Assembly (NCBI GenBank): GCA_902826815.1
Contig: CADEGF010000041.1
Location: 1 to 64,000, forward strand
From: an uncultured Mycobacteriaceae bacterium
GTDB lineage: Bacteria; Actinomycetota; Actinomycetes; Mycobacteriales; Mycobacteriaceae
Direction of reading: 5' to 3'
DNA length: 64,000 nt
Positions within the stretch are counted from its first letter, which is position 1. Each line of letters begins with the position of its first letter. The notes beneath the pieces were generated by a model. That model was not told the DNA's origin. It was given only the letters and a program-made list of their open reading frames with translations, and searched no databases. This document shows, piece after piece, positions 838 to 12,686 of this stretch. A program made the translations under genes and the position numbers.

Positions 838-1704
838 TTAGAAGTCCGTCGGGTTCGGCCGCTCGACGGACCTCGGCGGCAGGCCGAGGCCGCGTACGTG
901 ATTTGCGATGGCTTCCAGACTGGTGACCCACACGTCGTCGTGCGAGCAGACGTATTCGATCAGTGAGTCGAGCGCCTGTGCCCGCGACGGCCGCCCGGAC
1001 AGGAATGGGTGGTTGGTCAGCACATAGGCCCCACCCTCGGCGCGCATGGCGTCGAACTCCAGTCGCCACATCTCGGTTGCCTTGGCGGGGCTTTCGATCA
1101 GCCCGCTGCCGCTGAACTCGGGCACATAGCAATACTGCTCCCAGTCGTCGAGCGCCCATTGGATCGGGATCTCCACCAGTGGACCGCCCTCGTCGACGTC
1201 GAGCTCGTAGGGGTGGTCGGTGTCCATCAGGCTGCTGTCGTAGAGGAATCCCCTGGCGCGCAGCAGTTTCGGCGAATGCCAGTTCAGCTCCCACATCGGC
1301 GCCCGATAGCCGACCGGACGCAATCCGGTCACCGACTCGAGCGCCGCCAACCCACGGTCGAGGATGTCGGCTTCCTGCTGCTCGGTCTTACCGCGCATCG
1401 GTTCGTGCAGGTATCCGTGGTGGGCGATCTCGTGGCCGCCTGCGACGATCGAGCGAACCACGTCGGGATAGCGCACGGCCGTGTAGCCGGGAACGAAGAA
1501 CGTCGACGTGAGATTGTGCCTGGCAAGGATTTTCAGCAGCCGGGGCACCCCCGTCAGCGGTCCATAGGCCTGGTGGCTGATCGCCGACATGCGGTCGGCG
1601 TGTGAGGGATCCACGCCGAGCATCGCCGACTCCGCGTCCACGTCGAACGAGAACGACGCCGCGCATCGCGCATCGTTCGGCCACGGAACCGGTGGCACGC
1701 TCAT
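838..1704 (-). CDS. Polysaccharide deacetylase / PuuE-like allantoinase family protein
   Basis: This 288-residue protein has the NodB-homology fold signatures: F-D-V-D near residues 20-23 (catalytic Asp pair), [10 protein letters not shown] at 91-100 giving the His-x3-His metal site, and R-A-P at 134-136. The family hydrolyses N-acetyl or related C-N bonds in polysaccharides, but cytosolic members such as PuuE act on allantoin. No signal peptide is visible, so a cytoplasmic small-molecule role fits better than cell-wall work. The start overlaps the agmatinase-family stop by four bases (ATGA), making it the last gene of a five-gene operon of permease, two SDRs, ureohydrolase and this protein. 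Its true substrate is an inference from context. Confidence 0.82.
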
Positions 1705-2669
1705 GCGCGGCTGCGCGCGCGGCCGAGCAACGCAAGAAATTCGTACGCCAGGAAAGCGGCCGCGATCCCGGTCAACTCGGCATGGTCATATGCAGGCGCA
1801 ACTTCGACGATGTCCGCCCCGACGAGGTTGAGCCCGTCGAACCCGCGCACCAACTCGAGCAGTTCGCGACTGGTGAGACCGCCGATCTCCGGAGTTCCCG
1901 TGCCAGGGGCGTGCGCCGGGTCGAGCACGTCGATGTCGATCGACACGTACAGCGGATGGTCACCGATCTTGTCTCTCAATTGCCCGACCACGTCTGCGAC
2001 GGTACGTGTTTGGAACTCGCGGCAGTGCACGACGGTGAAACCGAGTTCGGCATCCGACGAGAGGTCGTCGGGCGAGTACAGCGCTCCGCGGATCCCGACA
2101 TGGGCACTGTAACCGGATATGAAGAGGCCCTCCTCTGCGGCCCGCCGGAACGGGGTGCCGTGGGTCAGTGGAGCGTCGAAGTAGGTGTCCCACGTGTCGA
2201 GGTGCGCGTCGAAGTGCACCAGCGCCACCGGCCCGTGAATTTTGTTGTGCGCGCGCAGCAACGGGTAGGCGATCGTGTGGTCTCCGCCGATCGTGATGAG
2301 CCGTGCGCCGTCGGCGATCAGTGCACTCGCCTGCTCCTCGATCTGAATCATCGCCTTGGCGATGTCGAACGGCGTGCACGCGATATCGCCGGCGTCGACG
2401 ACCTGCTGGGTGGCGAACGGCATCACCTCCATCTGCGGATGGTATGGCCGCAGCACCCGCGAGCACTGCCGGACATGAGTCGGTCCGAACCGCGCACCAG
2501 GTCGATAGCTGACACCGGTGTCGAACGGAATCCCGACGACGGCGACGTCGTATGTCGGGACGTCGCCGATCCGCGGCAGCCGCGCGAACGTGGAGAAGCC
2601 CGCGTAGCGCGGCACCACGGTCCCGTCGACCGGCTGCACCGGTTCGGATCGTTGCGTCATGTCCGGCAT
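1701..2669 (-). CDS. Agmatinase/ureohydrolase family enzyme
   Basis: This 322-residue protein carries all binuclear manganese motifs of the arginase/agmatinase family: G-G-D-H-T at 128-132, D-A-H-L-D-T-W-D at 154-161 and D-I-D-V-L-D at 245-250. These enzymes hydrolyse a guanidino group to urea plus an amine. Agmatine, guanidinobutyrate or another guanidino acid are all possible; sequence alone does not settle it. The ATG at 2669 is preceded eight bases away by GGAGGG and overlaps the upstream SDR by 13 bases. An internal ATG at 2660 is less well placed. It sits in an operon with an APC permease, two SDRs and a deacetylase-like protein. Confidence 0.9.
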
Positions 2670-3418
2670 CGTGTTGTCCCTCCGTTGATTTGCATGGTCT
2701 GGCCGACGAAGGCGCGCACGTCATCCCGGGCCAGCAACGAGACCGCCGCCGCAATGTCATCGGGTTTTCCAATCCGGCGAAGCGGTATTCCGCGCGCGTA
2801 CTCCTCGTGCATCTCGGTCAGCGTGAGACCCGCGTCTTCGGCGTCGACCTGCAACTGCGGGGTGTCGATGATGCCCGGCGCGATGGCGTTGACCGTGATG
2901 TTCTCGGGCGCCAGCTCGCGGCCGAGCGATTTCGTGAGCGCGATCAAGCCGGCTTTGGATGCGGCGTACGCGCCCGCATTGGGCCAACCGGTGACGCCCC
3001 ATTCCGATGCGATGACGACGATGTTGCCGCCAACCCGTCGGCGCATGCCTGCCAGCACGGCCTGCACCAGGTAGACGGTGCCCGACAAGTTGGTGTCGAC
3101 GATTCGCCACCAGTCGTCCTCGGGATGGTCGACGAACGGCCCCATGGTCATGTAGGCGTGGTTGCAGACCAGGATGTCCACCGCCCCGTGGGTGCGCTCG
3201 ATCTCGGCGACCATCGCCGCGACGGCGGCGGGATCGGAAACGTCTGCCGCGGCGGGAAATCCGCCCGTCGCGGTGACCACCGCGTCCATTCGATGGTCAC
3301 GGACGGGGCCGTTGACGCCGACCGTCGCGCCCTCGGCGGCCAGGCGTTGAGCGATTGCCGCACCGATCCCCTGGGTGGCGCCGCTGACCAATGCGATGCG
3401 ATCGGAATGTCGTGCCAT
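2657..3418 (-). CDS. Short-chain dehydrogenase/reductase (SDR)
   Basis: This is a 253-residue classical SDR. It has the nucleotide-binding G-A-T-Q-G-I-G motif near the N-terminus, an N-H-A segment, the catalytic Ser in A-S-E-W-G, and Y-A-A-S-K with catalytic Tyr and Lys. Such enzymes oxidise or reduce alcohol/carbonyl groups with NAD(P). It follows another SDR with a single base between stop and start, and its own end overlaps the agmatinase-family gene. The two SDRs plus a ureohydrolase suggest successive steps on a hydroxylated, nitrogen-containing substrate, but the reaction is not known. Confidence 0.87.
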
Positions 3419-3419
3419 G

Positions 3420-4103
3420 TCAGATCACGGCTCCGCTGTTCGGCGACAGCACTTCACCGGTGCAGAATCCGGCGTCGTCACTCACGAGGTAACGCACCAC
3501 CTCTGCGATCTCCTCGGGCCTGGCGAGCCTGCGCGCGGGCAGCGTCGCCAGGTATTCCGGCGCACGCCACGGCGAATCGGTCGCAAGCAGCGGAGTGTCT
3601 GTCGGGCCTGGAGCGACGGCATTGACTCGGACTCCATGCGCGGCAACCTCTGCGGCGAGGCTGCGCACCAGCCCGATGATGGCGCCCTTGGCGGCTGCGT
3701 AGTGCGCCTCGCAGTCACCGCCACCGACGGCCAGCTCCGACGTGATGGCGACGACGCATCCGCGACGGCGCTCGATCATCGACGGCAGAGCGGCGCGGGT
3801 GACATTGCGCAGACCGCCGAGGTGCACGCGCAGCATGCGGTGGAGTTGTTCTCCCGTGATGTCTGCGATGGGCGCGGACTCATAGTGGCCGGCCGCGCTG
3901 ACCACCGCGTCTATCGGTCCGAGGTCGTCGACCACCCGGTGGATGGCTCCGGCGACGGCGGACGGGTCGGCGACGTCGGCGACATAGGGTGCGGTGTCGT
4001 TGCGGTCAAGTCCCGCAACGGTATAGCCGTCCTGTTCGAGGGCAGCGGCGATGGCCGCGCCGATGCCGGAGGACGATCCGGTGACGACGGCGACGCGGGT
4101 CAC
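3420..4103 (-). CDS. Short-chain dehydrogenase/reductase (SDR), second of the operon
   Basis: This 227-residue SDR starts at a GTG that overlaps the upstream permease stop (GTGA). It shows G-S-S-S-G-I-G for cofactor binding, the catalytic Ser in T-S-E-L and Y-A-A-A-K, then N-A-V-A-P-G-P-T-D-T-P. An Asp at the end of the second strand (G-L-D-R-N) suggests NAD preference. The reading frame stays open upstream for almost 2.9 kb through the permease and the opposite-strand regulator, but that is a GC-rich artefact and not one protein. The partner SDR directly downstream may act on the same compound. Confidence 0.86.
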   Translation of the reverse strand: MTRVAVVTGSSSGIGAAIAAALEQDGYTVAGLDRNDTAPYVADVADPSAVAGAIHRVVDDLGPIDAVVSAAGHYESAPIADITGEQLHRMLRVHLGGLRNVTRAALPSMIERRRGCVVAITSELAVGGGDCEAHYAAAKGAIIGLVRSLAAEVAAHGVRVNAVAPGPTDTPLLATDSPWRAPEYLATLPARRLARPEEIAEVVRYLVSDDAGFCTGEVLSPNSGAVI

Positions 4104-5560
4104 TTCGGCGGCGGGCTTCCGGCGAGGCGTTCGGCGATCGGCGCCTGGATGTTGCGGCGCACCGACAGGTAGATCGCCATCCCGATCAATCCGAGCACCA
4201 CGGTGGTGAGCACACTTGCCCAACTGATGAACCAGGGCACGTCGGGCGAAGTGCGCGGCCACGCGACGTTGATCGTCTCGAAGATGATCCACAGCGACGC
4301 CAGGTAGGTGATCGGTGCGCCCCACCGGCCGAGGTTGAACGGGCCCGGTTTCCACTTGCCGGTCAGTCGCGCGAGCGCGGCCCCGATCACGGGGACGCCG
4401 AACGCGATGTAGAAGCCGATGATGTTGAAGTTGACCAGGATGCTGTAGAACTGCGTGCCCGCGATGACGACGAACACGATCGCCACGACCGCCGTCAACG
4501 CGATCGCATTGACGGGCAGGCGTTCCGAACCGGCAAGTCCGCCGAGCACCTTCGAGCCGGGCAGGCTGCGATCGCGGGCCGCGCCCCAGATACACCGGGA
4601 CACCGCGGCCTGAACCGCCAGGAAGCTCGACACGAAACCGATCACGAACATCGCCAGCAGCGGTTTGGTCACGCCTGCGCCGAGATGTACGGCGAGGGTG
4701 TCGGCAACGACGTCCCCCGACTGCGCGGCGATCACGCCTGGAAGGTCGGGGATCGAAAGGATAAGCGCCGCAGCGGAGAACATCACCACAAGCCCGACGA
4801 GCAACAGCGCAAAGATGATCGCCTTCGGCACGTTGCGTTCCGGGTCTTCCACTTCTTCGGCCACCGACCCGGCCGCCTCGAAGCCGAGGAATGACCACCC
4901 GACGTATGCGATGGCCAGCAGCATCGGACCCGATGCCCAGGATGCCGCATCGGGGATGCCCGCGCTGGTGAAGAGCACCGAGAACGGGTTCTCGCGGTAG
5001 AACAGCAGCAGCACGATGCCGAGGCCGAGCGAGCCGATGACCTCGCAGGTGATGCTGATAGCGACCATGATCTTGAGAACTTTGCGGCCCACCATGTTCA
5101 CTGCGGTCCCGGCGAGGATGATCGCGATCGCGATGGAGGCGATCTGCAGGCGGTTGGGTTCGCTGACACCGAAGATGTTGAGCAGGAAACCGCCCGCCGC
5201 GTAGGACAGCGTGCCGAGCGCAAGCGTCAGTCCCCACATGTACGCCCATGCGGCCACCCAGCCCCACGTTGTCCCCTGCACGTGCCGCGACCACTGGTAG
5301 ACGCTGCCCGCGTAGGGCCACCGAGACGCCAACTCCCCGAACACGGCCGCCACCATCAGCTGGCCGATGAGCACGATCGGGAACGCCCAGAAGAACTTCG
5401 GTCCCGCTGCGAACAGGCCGAGCGTGAAGATGGCGTAGACCGCGGCGATCGGCGACACGTCGGCGAATGCCAGCGACAGTGCAGAGCGGAAACTGAAGCC
5501 CTTCTGCAATCGCTCCGGAGTTCCTCCTGGCACTGTGGTCGTGTCGATCGATTCGGCCAT
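4100..5560 (-). CDS. APC-superfamily amino acid/amine permease
   Basis: This 486-residue hydrophobic protein has about twelve predicted membrane spans and typical APC-family features: the F-R-S-A-L-S-L-A-F-A-D-V-S-P-I first helix, the G-W-V-A-A-W-A-Y region and a G-F-E-A-A-G-S-V-A-E-E-V motif. It probably imports the nitrogenous substrate of the operon. The ATG at 5560 is chosen because GGGAG lies just upstream; an ATG at 5587 is possible. It is the first gene of the operon reading down to 838 and is divergent from a PucR regulator 121 bases away, which probably controls it. Substrate (amine, amino acid or ureide) is not identifiable. Confidence 0.85.
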   Translation of the reverse strand: MAESIDTTTVPGGTPERLQKGFSFRSALSLAFADVSPIAAVYAIFTLGLFAAGPKFFWAFPIVLIGQLMVAAVFGELASRWPYAGSVYQWSRHVQGTTWGWVAAWAYMWGLTLALGTLSYAAGGFLLNIFGVSEPNRLQIASIAIAIILAGTAVNMVGRKVLKIMVAISITCEVIGSLGLGIVLLLFYRENPFSVLFTSAGIPDAASWASGPMLLAIAYVGWSFLGFEAAGSVAEEVEDPERNVPKAIIFALLLVGLVVMFSAAALILSIPDLPGVIAAQSGDVVADTLAVHLGAGVTKPLLAMFVIGFVSSFLAVQAAVSRCIWGAARDRSLPGSKVLGGLAGSERLPVNAIALTAVVAIVFVVIAGTQFYSILVNFNIIGFYIAFGVPVIGAALARLTGKWKPGPFNLGRWGAPITYLASLWIIFETINVAWPRTSPDVPWFISWASVLTTVVLGLIGMAIYLSVRRNIQAPIAERLAGSPPPK

Positions 5561-5640
5561 GTCGGCTCCCGTCGCTGGAGGTTTCATCCGCCGCAACTGT
5601 GCTTCCGGATACCGTCCGAACGGAATACGCCAATCGTCTG

Positions 5641-5658
5641 AACTTCTGCGAAAACTTC
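5641..5658. promoter_or_regulatory. Candidate operator: direct repeat AACTTC-N6-AACTTC
   Basis: Two identical AACTTC hexamers, 12 bases apart start to start, lie in the 121-base gap between the divergent permease operon and PucR gene. Spacing of about one helical turn is common for regulator sites. No matching pair is present at the other PucR promoter, so assignment to PucR is only a guess. Confidence 0.25.
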
Positions 5659-5681
5659 GTACGATCATCTAGGTTCGAACT

Positions 5682-7178
5682 GTGGCCCAACCCACGGTGC
5701 GCGATCTGCTGGACACACCGCATCTCCGGCTCACGCTGAAGGGCGGCGCCGAGGGCCTGGACAGGCCGGTGACCTGGGCGCAGACCTCCGACCTCGAGGA
5801 ACCCTGGTCCTATCTGGCAGGCGGCGAGCTGCTGATGAAGAACGGGCAGACGTTGCCGGAATCGGCGGACGATCAAACCACTCTGATCCGCGGGGTCGCC
5901 GAGAACGGGATGTGCGGCATGGTGATCGGAATGGACGCCGCCACTCCCGAGCTGACCACGGGGGCGGTGACGGCGGCCGACCGCCTCGGCTTCCCGATCA
6001 TGGTGGTGCCCTACTCGGTGGGCTTCGCGACGATCGGTCGCGCTGTCGCCGACGCGGCGGGCAGTGGCCGCGTCGCGGTGACCGAACGGGTCTACAACGT
6101 GATCCGCCAATCGGTGTCGAATTCTGGGCCCGCCAACGTGCTTGCTCAGTTGGAGCGCGATCTGGCCTGCCGAATCGCGGTGCTCGACGCGTCCACCGGC
6201 GCGGTCGCGCTTGAGGCCTCCGAGCCGGCTCCAGTGGACCTGCGCCGGGTCATCACGTCCGAGATCTCGGGCAGGCGGGGTGCGATCCCCGGTGTGCTTC
6301 ATGTGACGGCGGGCTCCGACCGCGCACTCGTCGTCGAGGTCCCCGACGAGGAGCCGACCGTGTTGGCCACCTATGCGTTTCGCGGTCCAAGCACGGACAT
6401 GGTTCACCTGCAGCACCTGGCTTCTGCGGTCGCGGTGTTGCTGGCACAGCAGAACGCGCGCCGGGAACACGAACGGCGCATCGGCGCCGAGGTGATGGGC
6501 CAGTTGTGCGACGGCAGGATGAGCGACCGCGAAGGCGAAAGAGAACTCGGCGAGCGCGGCCTGAACACCGCGACGTGCTGCGTGGTGGCGGTCGACGGGG
6601 TCTCTGCAGCGAGCGAGCGACAACTCCACCTCGGTCTCGGCAGGCGTTCGGTGCCACACCTGCTGTTGCGCCGTGCGTCCCTGCTGTACGCGCTGATGCC
6701 TGTCACCGACCGGGCGCTCGACGTGCTCAGCCAGCGTCTGGGCGGCCAGGCAACGCTGGGCATCAGCGAGCCGCTGTCGCGCCCATCCCGCGCACCCAAC
6801 GCGGTCCGCGAGGCGACGTGGGCGGTGCGCGTCGCCGTCACCACGTCGAGCAAGACTGCGCGGTTCGCGGACGCGACCATGTTCTCCGTGCTGCGCGATC
6901 CGGAGGAGGCGCGCGTCGTCGTCGACCGGGTGCTGGGTCGGCTCATCGCCTACGACACAACGCATTCCAGCGATATGATCACCACTCTTGACACCTATCT
7001 ACGATGCGAACGGTCCTGGCTGCAGGCGGCAGGGGAACTCGGCATCCATCGGCAGACCGTGGTGTACCGCATCCAGCGAATCGAGGAGATCACCGGAAGG
7101 CGGATCGCCGACACGGCCACCCTCGCCGAGTTCTGGCTGGCATTACGCGCGAGAGACCTGTTGGCCGTCCCGAGTTGA
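5682..7178 (+). CDS. PucR-family transcriptional regulator (module 1)
   Basis: This 498-residue protein begins with a PucR-type N-terminal ligand-sensing domain (V-R-D-L-L-D-T-P-H-L-R-L, then G-E-L-L-M-K-N-G) and ends with a PucR C-terminal helix-turn-helix (A-A-G-E-L-G-I-H-R-Q-T-V-V-Y-R-I). Family members respond to purine-degradation or amine-type signals and usually control adjacent catabolic genes. The GTG at 5682 begins the domain directly. It is divergent from the permease operon and its 3' end overlaps the converging creatininase gene by 36 bases. Its length equals that of the second PucR at 11190, pointing to two copies of one regulatory module. Confidence 0.88.
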   Translation: MAQPTVRDLLDTPHLRLTLKGGAEGLDRPVTWAQTSDLEEPWSYLAGGELLMKNGQTLPESADDQTTLIRGVAENGMCGMVIGMDAATPELTTGAVTAADRLGFPIMVVPYSVGFATIGRAVADAAGSGRVAVTERVYNVIRQSVSNSGPANVLAQLERDLACRIAVLDASTGAVALEASEPAPVDLRRVITSEISGRRGAIPGVLHVTAGSDRALVVEVPDEEPTVLATYAFRGPSTDMVHLQHLASAVAVLLAQQNARREHERRIGAEVMGQLCDGRMSDREGERELGERGLNTATCCVVAVDGVSAASERQLHLGLGRRSVPHLLLRRASLLYALMPVTDRALDVLSQRLGGQATLGISEPLSRPSRAPNAVREATWAVRVAVTTSSKTARFADATMFSVLRDPEEARVVVDRVLGRLIAYDTTHSSDMITTLDTYLRCERSWLQAAGELGIHRQTVVYRIQRIEEITGRRIADTATLAEFWLALRARDLLAVPS

Positions 7179-7949
7179 GCCTCGTTGCGAGAACTCGTCG
7201 TCGACGATGGCGACCACGCGTTCCACCAACCACTCGTTGATCAGCTTGCCCACCTCGGCGCTTGCGCCCATCGGCGAGGATAGCGAACCGCTCGCCGTCG
7301 ACATCCGGGTGTCGATCGGCACGACATCGTGGTTGACCACGCGTTCGGGTTCGTCGTGCGCCATCCGATGGGTGCGCACGGCCGACGGCTGGTGATACAT
7401 CCACAGCGACGTCTCGATCACCGCGGCGTGTTCGAGGGCCAGCCCGGGGAAGCCGTCGGGCCAGATCGCCTTCTTTCGTTCCCGGGTGAACTCGGGAAAG
7501 ACGTCTTCGACGATCACGATCTTCAGTTCCGGATTATGTTCGGACACAAGGAAAGCCGGCTCGTAGATGAACCCGCTGTTCTCGTAGTGCCAGTTGTAGA
7601 GCACGATGTTGCGGAATCCGCCCCGCTTGAGCTCGCTGAGGACGTCTTCGAGCACGCTCATGAACGTGGTCGCGCGTAGCGAGACCGTGCCGGGAAAGTG
7701 CTGCCCGCCGCCGCTGCCCGGTCGACTGCGATAGCCGAAGGGCAGGAACGGCCCGACGACGAGGTCGCGGAGGCGGGCCGCATCGCACAACACCCGCTCC
7801 GGCAGCACCCAGTCGGTGCACACCGGCAGGTGGCGGCCGTGCTGCTCGGTGGCGCCGATGGGGATGACCACGGGAATGCCTGCTCGTGCCGCAGCCGAGA
7901 TCTCTTCCCACGTCATGTTCTGGTAGCGCGGATCGGTGTCGGTGCTCAT
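7143..7949 (-). CDS. Creatininase-family amidohydrolase
   Basis: This 268-residue protein has the metal and active-site pattern of creatinine amidohydrolases: T-E-Q-H-G (Glu35, His37), Asp46 and N-W-H-Y-E-N (His121, Glu123), the same spacing as in the Pseudomonas enzyme. The family opens cyclic amides such as creatinine and related lactams or formamides, and also contains cofactor-biosynthesis members. The ATG at 7949 overlaps the preceding permease stop (ATGA), so it is the last gene of the operon starting at 11083. Its 3' end overlaps the converging PucR gene by 36 bases. Together with the ureohydrolase in the sister operon it points to breakdown of guanidino or lactam nitrogen compounds. 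Confidence 0.86.
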   Translation of the reverse strand: MSTDTDPRYQNMTWEEISAAARAGIPVVIPIGATEQHGRHLPVCTDWVLPERVLCDAARLRDLVVGPFLPFGYRSRPGSGGGQHFPGTVSLRATTFMSVLEDVLSELKRGGFRNIVLYNWHYENSGFIYEPAFLVSEHNPELKIVIVEDVFPEFTRERKKAIWPDGFPGLALEHAAVIETSLWMYHQPSAVRTHRMAHDEPERVVNHDVVPIDTRMSTASGSLSSPMGASAEVGKLINEWLVERVVAIVDDEFSQRGSTRDGQQVSRA

Positions 7950-9361
7950 ACCGGGATCTCCTCCGCAGAGCCTGACGGCGCAGGCCGCGGCGACCACTTC
8001 TTGGAGCCCGCCCATGCCGCAAGGGCGAGCGCGATCAGCACCAGCTCGCCGACCAGATACTGGGTCTCCTGGGTGGCAAGCGCAATGCCGGTGAACACGA
8101 TCACCACCAGCGGCGGTATCGGATACAACGGCATCTTGAATGGCCTTGTCTCGTCGGGCATCGACCGGCGGCTCCAGAAGGCGGCAAGGCCGATGCAGAA
8201 GTACACCGCCGCGATGACCGTTCCCGAGAAGATGATCAGGAAGTTCAGCGCGGAGGTGAACACCAACACCGCGGCGGGGATGGCCAGGCACAGGATGCCC
8301 ACTGCGGGGACGCGGAACCTGTTGATGGAACCGATGACTCGGTTGACCGATGCGGGCCACATGTGGTCGCGGCCGGTGGTGTAGACACCGCGCCCGAAGT
8401 ACATCAGCAGCGAGAGCATCGCGTTGAACAGCGCGACGGACACTCCGATGTCGACGATGATGCGGGCGTTGTCGCCCAGCGATGCCTGCACCGAGTAGAC
8501 CACGGGAGACGTATCGCTGAAGAATTCTTTCAGGTCGGGGGCGGCGACGATGGCCGAGATCAGCGGGACCATGATCAGCACGCAGGCCAGCACCGCGGAG
8601 ATGATGACGGCCTTGGCGATATTGCGCTCGCCGCCCTTGAGTTCCTCGGAAAAACCCAGTGACGCGTCGTAGCCGTTGATGACGTTGAAGGCCGGCGCCA
8701 GCGTCGCGAGCATCACCGCGAAGCCGACAGCGACCAGTTCCCCGTTGTTCAGGACGGTGGGATGGAAGGTCACCTCGGCCAGGTTCTGATGAGGATGCGC
8801 CAAGGCCGCAACGGTCACGATGCCCAGCACGGTGCACTCGACGATCACCATCGCGCCGGTGGCCCATGCACCGACCTCGACCTTGAACAGCCCGATGCCG
8901 GTGGCGAGGGCCAGTAACACGATCGCCAGCACTGTGTCGGGTAAGCCGATACCCGGGATGAGGTCCTTGAGGAAGCCGACCATGCCAAGCGCGATGCTGG
9001 CCGGGATGACGATGCCCTGGATCAGGTAGTTGAACATCGTGATCCAGGAGAACGGCCCCGGAAGTACCTTGCGGACAAGCGAATACATGCCGCCCGCGAT
9101 CGGGAACATGCTTGCCAGCTCCCCGAGGCACAGGGAGATGAGCACCACTACGACCGACAGGATCAGGCCTGCGCCGATCGAGAACGTGCCGCCGATGAGA
9201 AACACTCCGGCCGACAGGAACAGCACCGCCATCGCCGGTGAGACGTCGGCCATGGCCAGCCCGACGACCTCGGGAATGTTCAGTCGCCGAACCAGCTGCT
9301 GGGAGTAGCCCAGTTGTTCGAGCCGGGACTGCGAGGGCGGCGCATCTTTCGCTTCGGTCAT
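7946..9361 (-). CDS. APC-superfamily amino acid/amine permease
   Basis: This 471-residue protein has about twelve membrane spans and the APC-family N-terminal signature (V-V-G-L-A-M-A-D-V-S-P-A-M-A-V) followed by a G-E-L-A-S-M-F-P-I-A-G-G-M-Y helix. It is the second such carrier in the locus, only distantly like the one at 4100, so the two may import different compounds. The ATG at 9361 has GGAGAG upstream and overlaps the preceding SDR stop (ATGA); 19 additional in-frame residues back to 9418 look non-coding. It is followed by the creatininase-family gene with another ATGA overlap. Confidence 0.85.
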   Translation of the reverse strand: MTEAKDAPPSQSRLEQLGYSQQLVRRLNIPEVVGLAMADVSPAMAVLFLSAGVFLIGGTFSIGAGLILSVVVVLISLCLGELASMFPIAGGMYSLVRKVLPGPFSWITMFNYLIQGIVIPASIALGMVGFLKDLIPGIGLPDTVLAIVLLALATGIGLFKVEVGAWATGAMVIVECTVLGIVTVAALAHPHQNLAEVTFHPTVLNNGELVAVGFAVMLATLAPAFNVINGYDASLGFSEELKGGERNIAKAVIISAVLACVLIMVPLISAIVAAPDLKEFFSDTSPVVYSVQASLGDNARIIVDIGVSVALFNAMLSLLMYFGRGVYTTGRDHMWPASVNRVIGSINRFRVPAVGILCLAIPAAVLVFTSALNFLIIFSGTVIAAVYFCIGLAAFWSRRSMPDETRPFKMPLYPIPPLVVIVFTGIALATQETQYLVGELVLIALALAAWAGSKKWSPRPAPSGSAEEIPV

Positions 9362-10176
9362 GAGCACTCTCCGGTCGTGGTGGGGGTAGCGATACCGATG
9401 GATCCGGCGGCCACACACGATGTGCGACCTCCGTCGGCGATCAGGTGTGTGCCGGTGATGTAGCCGGCACGGTCCGACAGCAGGAACACGACGGCTTCGG
9501 CAATCTCGGACGGCTCGGCGATCCGCGCCATGGCGACGCTGGCCGCGTTGTCCGCCAGTTCGGCTTCCGGGTCAACCGCGCCGTCGAACTCAGCGAGGAA
9601 CATCGGTGTCCTCGTGGTTCCCGGGCAGACGGCGTTCACGCGAATGCCCCACGACGCCAACTCGGCTGCCGCGCTTCGCGTCATCGCCACGATGGCACCC
9701 TTGGTCGCCGTGTACGCGACATAACCCGCCTGCCCGATGATCGCCAGTTCCGATCCGGTGTTGACGACAGCGCCCGCGCGGCGGGCCTGCATTACGCGCG
9801 CCGCCTCTCGCAGGACGAAGAACGAGCCGGCGAGGTTCACATCCACCAGCCGTCGGAAGACGTCGTCGGTCGTGTCGGCGAGCGGGCTCACGATCGAGAT
9901 GCCGGCGTTGTTGTGCACCGCATCGATCGGCCCCAGTTCGGATTCGACCCGTTCGAACGCGTTGCGCACCGCAGCCGAATCGGAGACGTCGGCGCCGACC
10001 GTCATCACCTTGCCGCCGTGGGCGCGGACCCTCTCCGCGGCGGACTCGAGGTCGTCGTCGGGCCGAGACAGCAGCGCGACGTCGGCGCCGTTTCGCGCGA
10101 GCGCTTCGGCGCTGGCCAGTCCGATACCCGATGCGGCACCGGTCACAAGGGCGATGCACCCCGCCATCTCAGGCAT
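9358..10176 (-). CDS. Short-chain dehydrogenase/reductase (SDR)
   Basis: This 272-residue classical SDR has G-A-A-S-G-I-G, N-N-A-G, a catalytic Ser in T-G-S-E-L and Y-T-A-T-K, followed by N-A-V-C-P-G-T-T-R-T-P. The tail after G-G-R-T-S-C is unusually long, ending about 20 residues beyond the normal stop of the fold. It overlaps the upstream epimerase by eight bases and the downstream permease by four. It probably oxidises an alcohol in the same pathway as the creatininase-family enzyme. Confidence 0.87.
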   Translation of the reverse strand: MPEMAGCIALVTGAASGIGLASAEALARNGADVALLSRPDDDLESAAERVRAHGGKVMTVGADVSDSAAVRNAFERVESELGPIDAVHNNAGISIVSPLADTTDDVFRRLVDVNLAGSFFVLREAARVMQARRAGAVVNTGSELAIIGQAGYVAYTATKGAIVAMTRSAAAELASWGIRVNAVCPGTTRTPMFLAEFDGAVDPEAELADNAASVAMARIAEPSEIAEAVVFLLSDRAGYITGTHLIADGGRTSCVAAGSIGIATPTTTGECS

Positions 10177-11083
10177 GCTGGTCCCGCAGCCAGTCGATCT
10201 GGTTGACGAAGCCCGACTCGAGCGTCCATGCGGGCGCGTAACCGAGGTCCCGTTTCGTCGCGGTCAGGTCGTAGGGCCCCTGGCTGTCCCAGTTCGGCAG
10301 CAGACCAGGGCCGATCTCGTAGCGGCTGCCACGAATGAGCCCCTCGAGCAGTCGAGCGGTCTCGGTGACGGTGACCTGCCCGCCGCCCGACACGTTGTAG
10401 ACCGGCTGCGACAGCCTCGTCGTGGTGGACGCCAACCGCGCCGCGGTGGCCACATCCCCGACGTGGACGAATTGGAACGGGTGGTCGCCGCCGGACTCCA
10501 AAACGAATGTCTCGCCCCGTATTCCGGCGCGGATCATATCGCCGAGCAGGCTCGGCATCCACAATCCGGGTCCGTATACCTCTGTGACGCGCAGCGAGAC
10601 GATCTCCATGTCGTAGAGCGAGTTGTAGACGTTCCCGAACAACTCGCCCGCGACCTTCGTCACTCCGTAAGGCGTTGTGGGGTTGGGCTTGATGTCCTCC
10701 GTCACCGCTGTGCCGGTCGGCACGGTGCCGACCGCGCATTCGGACGAGAAGTTGACGATCCGGCCGACACCGGTGACGCGTGCGGCCTCGTACACCGCGA
10801 GCGTGCCCTCCGCGTTGGCCTTGAAGGTGGTCCACGGAAGTTCGATGGAAACGCCGGGATGACTCTGGCCCGCGGTGTGGATAATGCGGTCGACGCTGTA
10901 GCGGCGCATCGTGTCGGTCAGGCGCGGGATGTCGAACAGCTCGCCCTGGACAGCGGTCAGGCCGTCGCGGTCGTCGACGGAGAAGTCGCGGTTGTAGCTG
11001 ACGACCTTGCCGCCTTCGCCGAGCAGTTGATCGACCAGATGGCGCCCGACGTAACCGCGGCCGCCGGTGACGAGAGTGGTCAT
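10169..11083 (-). CDS. NAD-dependent epimerase/dehydratase (extended SDR)
   Basis: This 304-residue protein has the extended-SDR signatures T-G-G-R-G-Y-V-G-R-H at the N-terminus, catalytic Ser in N-F-S-S-E and Y-G-V-T-K. Family members change sugar-nucleotides or other polyol-type substrates and some are lactone-forming dehydrogenases. The ATG at 11083 has AGGAG about seven bases upstream. It is the first gene of the four-gene operon ending with the creatininase-family enzyme and is divergent from a PucR regulator 106 bases away. A sugar-like or hydroxylated substrate is suggested, but not proven. Confidence 0.84.
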   Translation of the reverse strand: MTTLVTGGRGYVGRHLVDQLLGEGGKVVSYNRDFSVDDRDGLTAVQGELFDIPRLTDTMRRYSVDRIIHTAGQSHPGVSIELPWTTFKANAEGTLAVYEAARVTGVGRIVNFSSECAVGTVPTGTAVTEDIKPNPTTPYGVTKVAGELFGNVYNSLYDMEIVSLRVTEVYGPGLWMPSLLGDMIRAGIRGETFVLESGGDHPFQFVHVGDVATAARLASTTTRLSQPVYNVSGGGQVTVTETARLLEGLIRGSRYEIGPGLLPNWDSQGPYDLTATKRDLGYAPAWTLESGFVNQIDWLRDQHA

Positions 11084-11128
11084 ATATTCGCTCCTGAGAG
11101 TCGGGTCGACTAAGAATGCAACCGCTCA

Positions 11129-11141
11129 TTGCCTGCGGCAA
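11129..11141. promoter_or_regulatory. Candidate PucR-region operator (TTGCC-TGC-GGCAA)
   Basis: A perfect 5-base inverted repeat with a 3-base centre lies between the divergent epimerase operon and the second PucR gene. A second inverted pair, CATTGC (11127-11132) and GCAATG (11147-11152), overlaps it. Position fits an autoregulatory or operon-controlling site; nothing more supports it. Confidence 0.3.
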
Positions 11142-11189
11142 CGGACGCAATGTCAGGTTTTTCAGGCCAAATGTGGGTCAGAATGTCCT

Positions 11190-12686
11190 ATGACTTTGGT
11201 GCTGCGTCAGGTCCTCGAACATCCGCTGCTGCGGCGCGCGCAACCGTCGGTTCTCAGCGGCCACGATCACCTCGACCATGCCGTCCGATGGGTACACAGC
11301 GCCGACCTGTACGACATCGCGCCGCTGTTGCGCGGCGACGAGATGCTTCTGACCAACGGCGTCGGCCTGGTCGGCGTCGACGAAACCGCCCGTCGGCTGT
11401 ATGTGCGGAGGATCGCCGAAAGCGGGGTTGCCGGACTGTGTTTCGAGGTCGGCAGGACATTCGCCGAAGTGCCTCCGGAGATGGTCTCCGAAGCCGTCGA
11501 CGTGGGTCTGCCCATCATCGAACTGCAGCCCGTCCTTCGGTTCACCGAGGTGGCCGAGGCGGTGAACAGCGAGCTCATCGACAGGTCGGTGGCCCGGCTG
11601 CGCCATGCCGACGAGATCTCCCGTGCGCTGTCCGAGGCGCTGGCCCGCGGCGCCTCACTGACCGAACTGATCGAACGGGTCGCCGCCACCCTCGGCACGT
11701 GGGCGCGGCTCAGCGACTACGCGGGCAGGGTCGTCGTCGTCGCAGGTCAGCCCGAGGGTGGCCCGCGCGCCGAGGCGCCCGTCCTTGTCGAGGGCACGGC
11801 GTGGGGGCGATTGGCTGCAGGCACAGCCGGGATCCCGACCGTTCTCGTCGAAGCGGTGATGGATCGGGCGCCGACAGTGCTCGGTCTCTGCCTGATACGT
11901 GAGCAGAAGGACGTCGCGGGTGGTCTGCGCGCACAGCAGGTCCTGCTTCACCATCTGGTGGCCAACGAACCCACGGACCGGCCGGTGCTGGAAGCCCGGC
12001 TGCGCGCCGCCGGTGTCGCCACGTCGGATCACCGGTACGCCTGCATCGCGGTGGATCCGTCTCGCGTCGAGTCGGCGGCACACGTCGCCGACACGATCGT
12101 GCGCCGGGTGGGTAGCGGAGTGTTCGGACTCGTCGACGGTGTCCTGTGCGCCGTGCTGGCCGGGCCTGCCGACAACGCGTCCGCCAACCTCGCGCGCGTC
12201 GTGCGCGACACCGCGCTTGCCGAAGTCTGGCCGCAGTCGCGGCTGTGCGCGGTGGTCAGCCGCACGACGCGCGACGTTGCCGACCTCCCACGGGCCATGT
12301 CGGAAACGCGGGCCACGCTCGACCTCGGCGAGGACCTGCACATGAACGAGGCGGTGATCGGTGTTCAGGCGCTGGCACTCGAGCGCCTGCTCGCCGCGCA
12401 CGGGAAACCTGAAGCCATGCGACAGTTCGTCGATGATCAGATAGGTGCCCTCACGAGAGCCGATTCCGCCAAGCACAGCCAGCTTTCACACACCCTCGAA
12501 GTTCTCGCGGCATGCGGAGGCAGCAAGGCCGAAGCGGCGAAGCGCCTTCACGTGCGGCGTCAGTCGCTTTACTACCGAATCGACCAGATATCCAAGCTGC
12601 TCGACGTCGACATGGACGATCCGAAGCAGCTGACCACCCTCGCGGTGGCGATCAGCGCCGAGCGGCTGGTGTACGCAGGCAAGTGA
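11190..12686 (+). CDS. PucR-family transcriptional regulator (module 2)
   Basis: This 498-residue regulator has the PucR N-terminal domain (L-R-Q-V-L-E-H-P-L-L, then G-D-E-M-L-L-T-N-G) and a C-terminal PucR helix-turn-helix (A-A-K-R-L-H-V-R-R-Q-S-L-Y-Y-R-I). The ATG at 11190 begins the conserved domain; the frame is open further up to 11067, but those residues have no domain similarity. It is divergent from the epimerase-SDR-permease-creatininase operon and probably controls it. Its stop directly abuts the stop of the converging zinc-peptidase gene with no spacer, so no classical terminator fits between them. Confidence 0.88.
   Translation: MTLVLRQVLEHPLLRRAQPSVLSGHDHLDHAVRWVHSADLYDIAPLLRGDEMLLTNGVGLVGVDETARRLYVRRIAESGVAGLCFEVGRTFAEVPPEMVSEAVDVGLPIIELQPVLRFTEVAEAVNSELIDRSVARLRHADEISRALSEALARGASLTELIERVAATLGTWARLSDYAGRVVVVAGQPEGGPRAEAPVLVEGTAWGRLAAGTAGIPTVLVEAVMDRAPTVLGLCLIREQKDVAGGLRAQQVLLHHLVANEPTDRPVLEARLRAAGVATSDHRYACIAVDPSRVESAAHVADTIVRRVGSGVFGLVDGVLCAVLAGPADNASANLARVVRDTALAEVWPQSRLCAVVSRTTRDVADLPRAMSETRATLDLGEDLHMNEAVIGVQALALERLLAAHGKPEAMRQFVDDQIGALTRADSAKHSQLSHTLEVLAACGGSKAEAAKRLHVRRQSLYYRIDQISKLLDVDMDDPKQLTTLAVAISAERLVYAGK

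Follow-up and report, generated by a model that had tools for sequence, protein, structure and literature searches.

Two PucR-linked operons of a mycobacterial contig as candidate catabolic modules for small guanidino compounds

The window analysed here, the first 64,000 nucleotides of contig 41 (CADEGF010000041.1) in the 6.87 Mb draft genome of an uncultured Mycobacteriaceae bacterium (GCA_902826815.1), was found to contain two divergent PucR-linked operons at positions 838–12686, termed units A and B, with 11 open reading frames (ORFs). Unit A contained, on the minus strand, genes for an APC permease (A5), two short-chain dehydrogenases (SDRs; A4 and A3), a ureohydrolase (A2) and a PuuE/imidase-like hydrolase (A1), with the PucR gene A6 placed divergently. 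Unit B, also on the minus strand, contained genes for an extended SDR (B4), an SDR (B3), an APC permease (B2) and a creatininase-family hydrolase (B1), with the PucR gene B5 placed divergently. Each unit may be a catabolic module, linked to a PucR gene, that acts on a small guanidino compound, which would be oxidised to a cyclic lactam, opened at the ring and relieved of urea; this reading is given just short of an even chance. A sequence-only reading of the window had named two PucR-controlled operons with an APC permease, SDRs and different C-N hydrolases, as an undescribed set of ten genes in one locus. The operon types were borne out by the Pfam and NCBIfam scores, and no description of the gene set was found in the literature of open PubMed Central, whereas the gene count had to be raised to eleven.

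In the search for relatives, 198 genomes were searched with B1, A1 and A2, and 40 stretches were read, followed by further loci later. The operons were confirmed to be conserved far beyond chance, by 25 other unit-A-type loci (L073–L083, L087–L091, L093, L100, L195–L197, L208, L209, L213 and L214; 26 with the window) and by two pure (L059, L108) and three extended (L060, L062, L066) copies of unit B elsewhere. The ureohydrolases of the nearest ten unit-A-type loci were 72–80% identical to A2. The A3 gene was replaced by a distant SDR (32–34%) in L090 and L093, and the ureohydrolase gene was found to be divergent in L209 and to stand first in Rubrobacter (L100), where a GntR-type gene lay nearby in place of PucR. 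Three loci of three other families (L195–L197) were unit-A-like with the hydrolase gene first and contained a ureohydrolase of a second clade, U2. Matches in two pieces were obtained for the permease in L075 and L088 and for the ureohydrolase in L091, where the pieces of the G135 gene (9634–10538) overlap, owing either to a frameshift or to a fault in the assembly. The extended unit B operons contained an A1-like gene (44%) in the first place, followed by the presence of a U2 gene in the last place in two of the three (L060, L062). In a third form (L064, L065, L110 and L111, together with L061 and the truncated L063, in which the extended SDR was not found) no B2-type permease was found, and a GMC oxidoreductase and an NCS1 permease were present nearby except for L063, whose contig ended at the SDR. 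A cousin, unit C, was found to contain a 57–60% creatininase and two SDRs (L067–L072; L114 ended soon after the first SDR).

Co-occurrence was counted over 118 genomes of the same genus, that of the window included, from sets compiled by hand, with unit A defined by adjacent A1-like and ureohydrolase genes and B-type creatininases by at least 70% identity; all probabilities given here ignore phylogeny. Unit A was present in 24 of the 118 genomes and a B-type creatininase in eight, all eight of which contained unit A (hypergeometric P 1e-6), as did seven of seven among the 45 genomes of at least 6 Mb (P 7e-4). The two units were adjacent only in the genome of the window, one of the eight with a B-type creatininase, although adjacency may go unseen in draft assemblies. 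In the other seven, unit A lay apart from B: on other contigs of drafts, or, as in G086, far off on one 7.6 Mb contig, where the units stand at 0.21 Mb and 6.71 Mb (a distance of about 1.1 Mb should that contig be circular). The 20 kb stretches round both units in G065 and G034 contained no genes of the other unit, except for the A1-like and U2 genes in the B operon of G034. A single ten-gene locus was thus rejected, one pathway made up of both operons was not supported, and A and B are to be seen as related modules. The scattering came close to what the sequence-only reading had named as its refutation, but unit A, and likewise unit B or its variants, remained intact, and they co-occurred in eight of eight genomes.

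The units were not found to be duplicates of one another, this being ruled out by identities of 24–42% at most (permeases 24%, PucRs 28% over 123 residues, A4 and B3 42%, A3 and B3 34%). Two unrelated pathways lying side by side, A for an imide or ureide with an agmatinase and B for a lactam, are an unlikely account: the units are separable, their permeases, PucRs and hydrolases are dissimilar and A2 passed two agmatinase models of NCBIfam (TIGR01230, NF002564), but unit A accompanied every B-type creatininase, and hybrid operons were found in which A1-like, U2, SDR and creatininase genes (L060, L062) or A-type genes and U2 (L195–L197) were combined.

Nine compared sequences of the U2 clade shared 80–97% mutual identity and 56–59% identity to A2. 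Of the 13 genomes that have a creatininase of the B or C kind, all except G065 contained U2 (12 genomes), as against 15 of the 118 overall (P 7e-13). Twelve further ureohydrolases (55–62% to A2), a subset of the paralogs of the genus, were checked and were not U2 (53–57% to the L060 copy). The U2 loci read numbered 21, with identities to the L060 copy of at least 69% (L060–L064, L067–L070, L111, L195–L198 and L201–L207); L109, which repeats L060, and L200 and L210 (60–61%) were left out, and L199, counted at first, was dropped (65% to U2, 62% to A2). The U2 gene lay within or near creatininase operons in L060–L064 and L067–L070, and 14 of the 21 loci contained a creatininase or an A1-like gene in the stretch read. 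In six of the 21 (L061, L063, L064, L111, L201 and L207), U2 was followed by the presence of gcvP, gcvT, gcvH, glyA and sdaA, with a permease between U2 and the glycine-cleavage genes in L201. The lpd gene was also found in L061, L063, L064 and L207, and lipA, named from its sequence, in L063, L064 and L207; the entire operon was seen in L110, where the position of U2 lay past the end of the stretch. The GcvP of L061 passed its NCBIfam cut-off (1292 against 859 bits), and the GcvT, GcvH, serine hydroxymethyltransferase (SHMT), L-serine ammonia-lyase (SdaA) and lipoamide dehydrogenase (Lpd) of L064 passed theirs. The genome of the window was found to contain two gcvP genes, one on contig 3 and the other in the U2 operon on contig 39, which reads gcvP-gcvT-gcvH-glyA-sdaA-lpd. 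That a guanidino-acid ureohydrolase should share its operon with a second set of glycine-cleavage genes is difficult to account for unless U2 releases glycine from guanidinoacetate, and from this gene context the creatininase/U2 branch probably makes glycine from that acid. We know of no sequence for the guanidinoacetase activity (EC 3.5.3.2), which U2 would supply if this reading is true. Contig 39 (L061, 2577–14050 and beyond) also contained a second creatininase/SDR set, 72–73% identical to B1 and B3, convergent with the U2 and glycine-cleavage operon and adjoining a GMC oxidoreductase and an NCS1 permease.

Among solved structures, A1 was found to match PDB 3rxz (419 bits), HpPgdA (3qbu, 134 bits) and PuuE (3cl6, 98 bits), whereas the GlcNAc, chitin and acetyl-xylan enzymes among its matches reached 38 bits or less. 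The D-x-D motif, the two metal histidines and the late histidine lined up with those of HpPgdA. By these alignments, A1 sits on the small-substrate HpPgdA/PuuE/imidase branch, nearer to it than to the classical sugar deacetylases. Allantoin is unlikely as the substrate because A1 scored 93 against the cut-off of 424.6 of the PuuE equivalog model TIGR03212; for HpPgdA, a small substrate has been argued for and the enzyme is reported to be inactive on allantoin (PMC3084791). An NCS1 permease, an A1-like hydrolase and U2 were found in a row in L204, with no SDRs recognised nearby. L199 was similar with a PucR gene in addition, its ureohydrolase being not clearly U2, and L211 and L212 contained NCS1 and A1-like genes, with no ureohydrolase match found. 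From these four loci, the A1-like hydrolase may by itself turn a heterocycle taken up by the cell into the substrate of the ureohydrolase, as would fit the opening of a cyclic guanidine lactam.

The closest solved relatives of A2 were 3-guanidinopropionase (276 bits) and guanidinobutyrase (270 bits), the difference being marginal, and its metal-binding motifs GGDH, DAHLD and DIDVLDP were intact. As these two relatives act on guanidino acids, the agmatinase name given by NCBIfam was not accepted. In L214, unit A and its PucR gene adjoined a class-III aminotransferase and a CoA-acylating methylmalonate-semialdehyde dehydrogenase (MMSDH; 686 against 448.5 bits); both kinds, with an alanine dehydrogenase, stood ahead of the module on the Rubrobacter plasmid (L100), and an aminotransferase 80% identical to the L214 copy lay about 7 kb from A1 in L093. 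A class-III aminotransferase and a CoA-acylating semialdehyde dehydrogenase form the textbook set for beta-alanine. This context hints that unit A likely turns 3-guanidinopropionate into beta-alanine, less strongly than in the case of glycine because only three of the 26 loci are involved.

All four SDRs of the window (A3, A4, B3 and B4) were found to contain Glu directly after the catalytic Ser. Among the best 30 of 134 SDR matches in the same genome, of which 21 loci gave a motif (24 rows), Glu followed the Ser in two of the 24, both B3-type SDRs beside creatininases, and Asp in none. Across the modules read (A, B, C and proteobacterial), the A4/B3-type SDR contained S-E or S-D, and this motif was absent from the other SDRs in their flanks. 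The A3-type motif was variable (S-E-W-G, S-G-W-G, S-I-W-G or -S, S-I/V-S), with two sequences lacking a readable motif. The Glu beside the catalytic Ser would hold the cationic guanidinium.

In the proposed route, the APC permease would import the guanidino compound and the SDRs, working in the oxidative direction, would form a cyclic guanidine lactam from it by oxidation at an alcohol or carbinolamine (cyclic hemiaminal) carbon. The ring-opening hydrolase (B1 of the creatininase family, or A1 of the PuuE/imidase branch) would convert the lactam into a guanidino acid, which the ureohydrolase would split into urea and an amino acid. In the creatininase/U2 branch, the acid would be guanidinoacetate, whose ring form is glycocyamidine, and the amino acid would be glycine, to be burned by the dedicated glycine-cleavage/SHMT/serine-dehydratase operon, whereas in unit A they would be 3-guanidinopropionate and beta-alanine. 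Unit B of the window would rely on A2 or on the U2 copy of contig 39. Lombricine, an earthworm phosphagen, is a speculative source of guanidinoethanol.

The alcohol would not be the natural start if a pre-formed cyclic guanidine or urea were hydroxylated and oxidised (ring CH2 to CHOH to C=O) and then opened, with the SDRs acting after an oxygenase. Rieske/VanA-type proteins were found in L070 (Pfam) and in L090 and L093 (both by clustering with L070), an FMN monooxygenase in Salipiger (annotation), a fatty-acid-desaturase-family protein in Stutzerimonas and a GMC oxidoreductase in L061, L064, L065, L110 and L111, all of which would suit such a start. The window, however, contained no oxygenase gene in unit A or B, and among the unit-A-type loci, with their flanking genes annotated in part, an oxygenase was recognised only in L090 and L093; this route is an unlikely one.

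B1 passed the NCBIfam creatininase model TIGR04448, and creatininase was its closest solved relative. Both gate tryptophans, which we take to be W154 and W174 of creatininase with a role at its gate, were missing, B1 containing VFPEF and GLALEH in place of YWDF and GWDIEH of 1j2t, with the E-H retained. Both were lost in all ten aligned B and C creatininases, and the replacing Pro and Leu were invariant in the ten; these positions are the sites substituted in PDB chains 3a6h, 3a6g and 3a6e. Two 38–39% relatives retained the tryptophans, L102 beside an M24 peptidase gene and L101 in an ABC-transporter/urease-accessory stretch. Creatinine is therefore unlikely as the substrate of B1. Classical creatinine/creatine use, in which B1 would make creatine and the ureohydrolase would replace creatinase, draws on the family score and closest relatives of B1 but is the least probable account, given the loss of the gate, SDRs left without a role and a linked operon of glycine genes where creatine breakdown would give sarcosine. 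In L112 (Actinacidiphila) and L113 (a Pseudonocardia metagenome-assembled genome), a 59% creatininase was found to adjoin a TRZ/ATZ-type aminohydrolase, with an NCS1 permease too in L112; these stretches contained no SDR matching those of the window.

Outside the actinobacteria, proteobacterial modules of Rhodospirillaceae (L117), Rhizobiales (L124), Stutzerimonas (L122) and Salipiger (L103) were found to contain a creatininase and two SDRs, one of the S-D/E type. These creatininase/two-SDR modules may be convergent with the mycobacterial ones. One SDR clade across phyla was not shown, the tree needing three changes for the S-E/D type and two for the other, with long branches. A wider proposal, more tentative and rather doubtful, is that of an undescribed cross-phylum module in which an SDR pair, one with an acidic residue beside the catalytic Ser, would act on guanidino alcohols or hemiaminals and yield cyclic guanidine lactams. 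The creatininase- and imidase-family ring-openers would be glycocyamidine and dihydroisocytosine hydrolases. Of the two ureohydrolase clades, one would be a guanidinoacetase that supplies a glycine-cleavage operon of its own, the other a guanidinopropionase that supplies the use of beta-alanine. L122 contained an NMT1-type ABC transporter, a desaturase-family protein, two SDRs, EamA, a creatininase, a biuret-hydrolase-like and a 4-pyridoxolactonase-like gene, with similar gene matches in L119 and L123; this gene set belongs to a related but different pathway.

Several points weigh against the guanidino-compound modules as proposed. The window's unit B contained no ureohydrolase of its own, and in the Stutzerimonas module the biuret-hydrolase-like protein stood at the expected ureohydrolase place. 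Within the stretches read, neither a creatininase nor an A1-like gene was seen in seven of the 21 U2 loci (L198, L201–L203 and L205–L207), the genomes of L205–L207 having a creatininase elsewhere, and glycine-cleavage genes were not seen in 15 of the 21. Human AGMAT, a guanidino-acid hydrolase, is reported not to accept guanidinoacetate (PMC9772407). The aminotransferase was present in three of the 26 unit-A-type loci and MMSDH in two, and the unit-A-like operons with U2 (L195–L197) make the split between glycine and beta-alanine not strict. An A1-like protein and a creatininase stand within one operon in L060, L062 and L066, so that the two hydrolases are not simply interchangeable. The two SDRs of a possible third module (L097) lacked the S-E motif, and the SDR tree is no proof of a single clade across phyla. 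The co-occurrence counts take no account of descent, and unit A showed no link with the C creatininase (two of six genomes, P 0.35).

The earlier idea of guanidino, ureido or lactam catabolism with release of ammonia or urea stands in part. The catabolic look and a guanidino or lactam compound were retained and refined to guanidino acids giving glycine or beta-alanine and urea, with allantoin and creatinine unlikely. In the genome of the window, no intact urease gene was found (best match 33 bits of 680, plus a 25-bit fragment with stops), and of urea carboxylase partial matches were found and no full-length gene. It is thus doubtful that this bacterium gains nitrogen from urea, which may be excreted, so that the benefit may lie in the amino acid.

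Table 1. Genes of units A and B, their assignments and scores
Gene	Assignment	Positions	Strand	Basis and remarks
A1	Hydrolase, PuuE/HpPgdA/imidase branch of polysaccharide-deacetylase fold; proposed ring-opening amidohydrolase	838–1704	-	PF01522 64.8 bits
A2	Ureohydrolase, guanidino-acid type; proposed 3-guanidinopropionate amidinohydrolase (to beta-alanine and urea)	1701–2669	-	PF00491 312.7 bits
A3	SDR, S-E-W-G active-site type	2657–3418	-	PF13561 190.9 bits; motif
A4	SDR, S-E-L-A active-site type, GTG start	3420–4103	-	PF13561 161.1 bits; motif
A5	APC-family permease, proposed importer	4100–5668	-	PF13520 154.1 bits; longest ORF, true start may be downstream
A6	PucR-family regulator, divergent from unit A	5682–7178	+	PF07905 86.3 bits, PF13556 70.1 bits; 498 aa
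B1	Creatininase-family hydrolase, altered pocket; proposed cyclic guanidine lactam hydrolase	7143–7949	-	PF02633 177.5 bits; TIGR04448 259.6 (cut-off 235)
B2	APC-family permease	7946–9361	-	PF13520 112.5 bits; ATG at 9361, ORF open to 9418
B3	SDR, S-E-L-A type	9358–10176	-	PF13561 204.1 bits; motif
B4	Extended SDR (epimerase/dehydratase fold), S-S-E-C motif	10169–11083	-	PF01370 155.8 bits; motif
B5	PucR-family regulator, divergent from unit B	11190–12686	+	PF07905 104.8 bits, PF13556 64.5 bits; 498 aa

Six of the seven same-strand junctions were found to overlap, by 4–13 bp, much as the sequence-only reading had it, the figures resting on start codons picked in the analysis. In unit A, A5/A4 overlapped by 4 bp (GTG at 4103), followed by a gap of 1 bp at A4/A3 and overlaps of 13 bp at A3/A2 and 4 bp at A2/A1. 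In unit B, the overlaps were 8 bp at B4/B3, 4 bp at B3/B2 and 4 bp at B2/B1, and the units were joined by a tail-to-tail overlap of 36 bp between A6 and B1. Both PucR proteins contained the N-terminal PF07905 and the C-terminal PF13556 domain over the cut-off, and from its divergent placement each would be the controller of its operon. Their equal length, also claimed earlier, holds for B5 only from the ATG at 11190, the longest ORF from 11067 giving 539 aa, and is of little weight because the two are only 28% identical. Unit A begins 838 bases from the contig edge, so that genes further downstream are not visible; a EutQ-like cupin gene (PF05899, 41.7 bits) was found in this stretch at 105–584.

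Two other loci of the same genome contained related genes. On contig 9 (L097, 7927–13525), an A1-like gene (40%) was followed by the presence of two SDRs, adjoining a divergent hydantoinase/oxoprolinase A gene and an AAT-family gene; this is perhaps the third module of the genome. On contig 13 (L095, 8790–14375), a third ureohydrolase (63% to A2), with 71–77% relatives in other genomes of the genus, was found with a thiamine diphosphate (ThDP) enzyme, a sodium-symporter-like permease named from its sequence and a divergent PucR-like gene.

If true, the proposed route would bring the creatininase, agmatinase, polysaccharide deacetylase and SDR families into one testable pathway in actinobacteria, with a related form in proteobacteria. 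Misleading names would be corrected across many genomes, candidate genes for guanidinoacetate and glycocyamidine breakdown would be gained, and the key product can be tested directly because of the link to glycine cleavage. In Mycobacterium smegmatis, one creatininase-family and one agmatinase gene are reported as induced under nitrogen limitation (PMC4617892); they could not be matched to unit A or B.

As compared with known systems, B1 shares the fold family, the family-model score and the conserved E-H with Pseudomonas creatininase, whereas the B-type enzymes have lost the gate Trp, stand beside SDRs and are linked to glycine and not to sarcosine genes. A1 lies on the branch of PuuE allantoinase and Helicobacter HpPgdA with the HpPgdA metal residues aligned, and differs in missing the PuuE cut-off and in its SDR and ureohydrolase neighbours. 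Among solved structures, A2 is closest to GpuA (3nip) and GbuA (3nio) of Pseudomonas aeruginosa, with the metal motifs intact, but shares its operon with two SDRs and a ring-opening hydrolase, neighbours of which we know none for the Pseudomonas Gpu/Gbu genes. In vitamin B6 degradation, a GMC oxidase and an SDR lead to a lactone that a lactonase opens. The logic is the same, a hemiacetal being oxidised to a ring that is then opened, with a lactone in place of a guanidine lactam and other substrates. The NCBIfam model for pyridoxal 4-dehydrogenase was matched by A3 and A4, and that for 4-pyridoxolactonase by the Stutzerimonas neighbour, in each case below the cut-off. In the nicotinate pathway of Aspergillus nidulans, the SDR HxnW acts on a ring C-OH adjacent to N and gives a cyclic imide, which is then opened by the imidase HxnM, a relative of HpPgdA and PuuE (PMC9304392). 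That system is fungal and acts on a piperidine imide, with no guanidine and no ureohydrolase, and its logic of oxidising and then opening a ring is a precedent for the proposed route.

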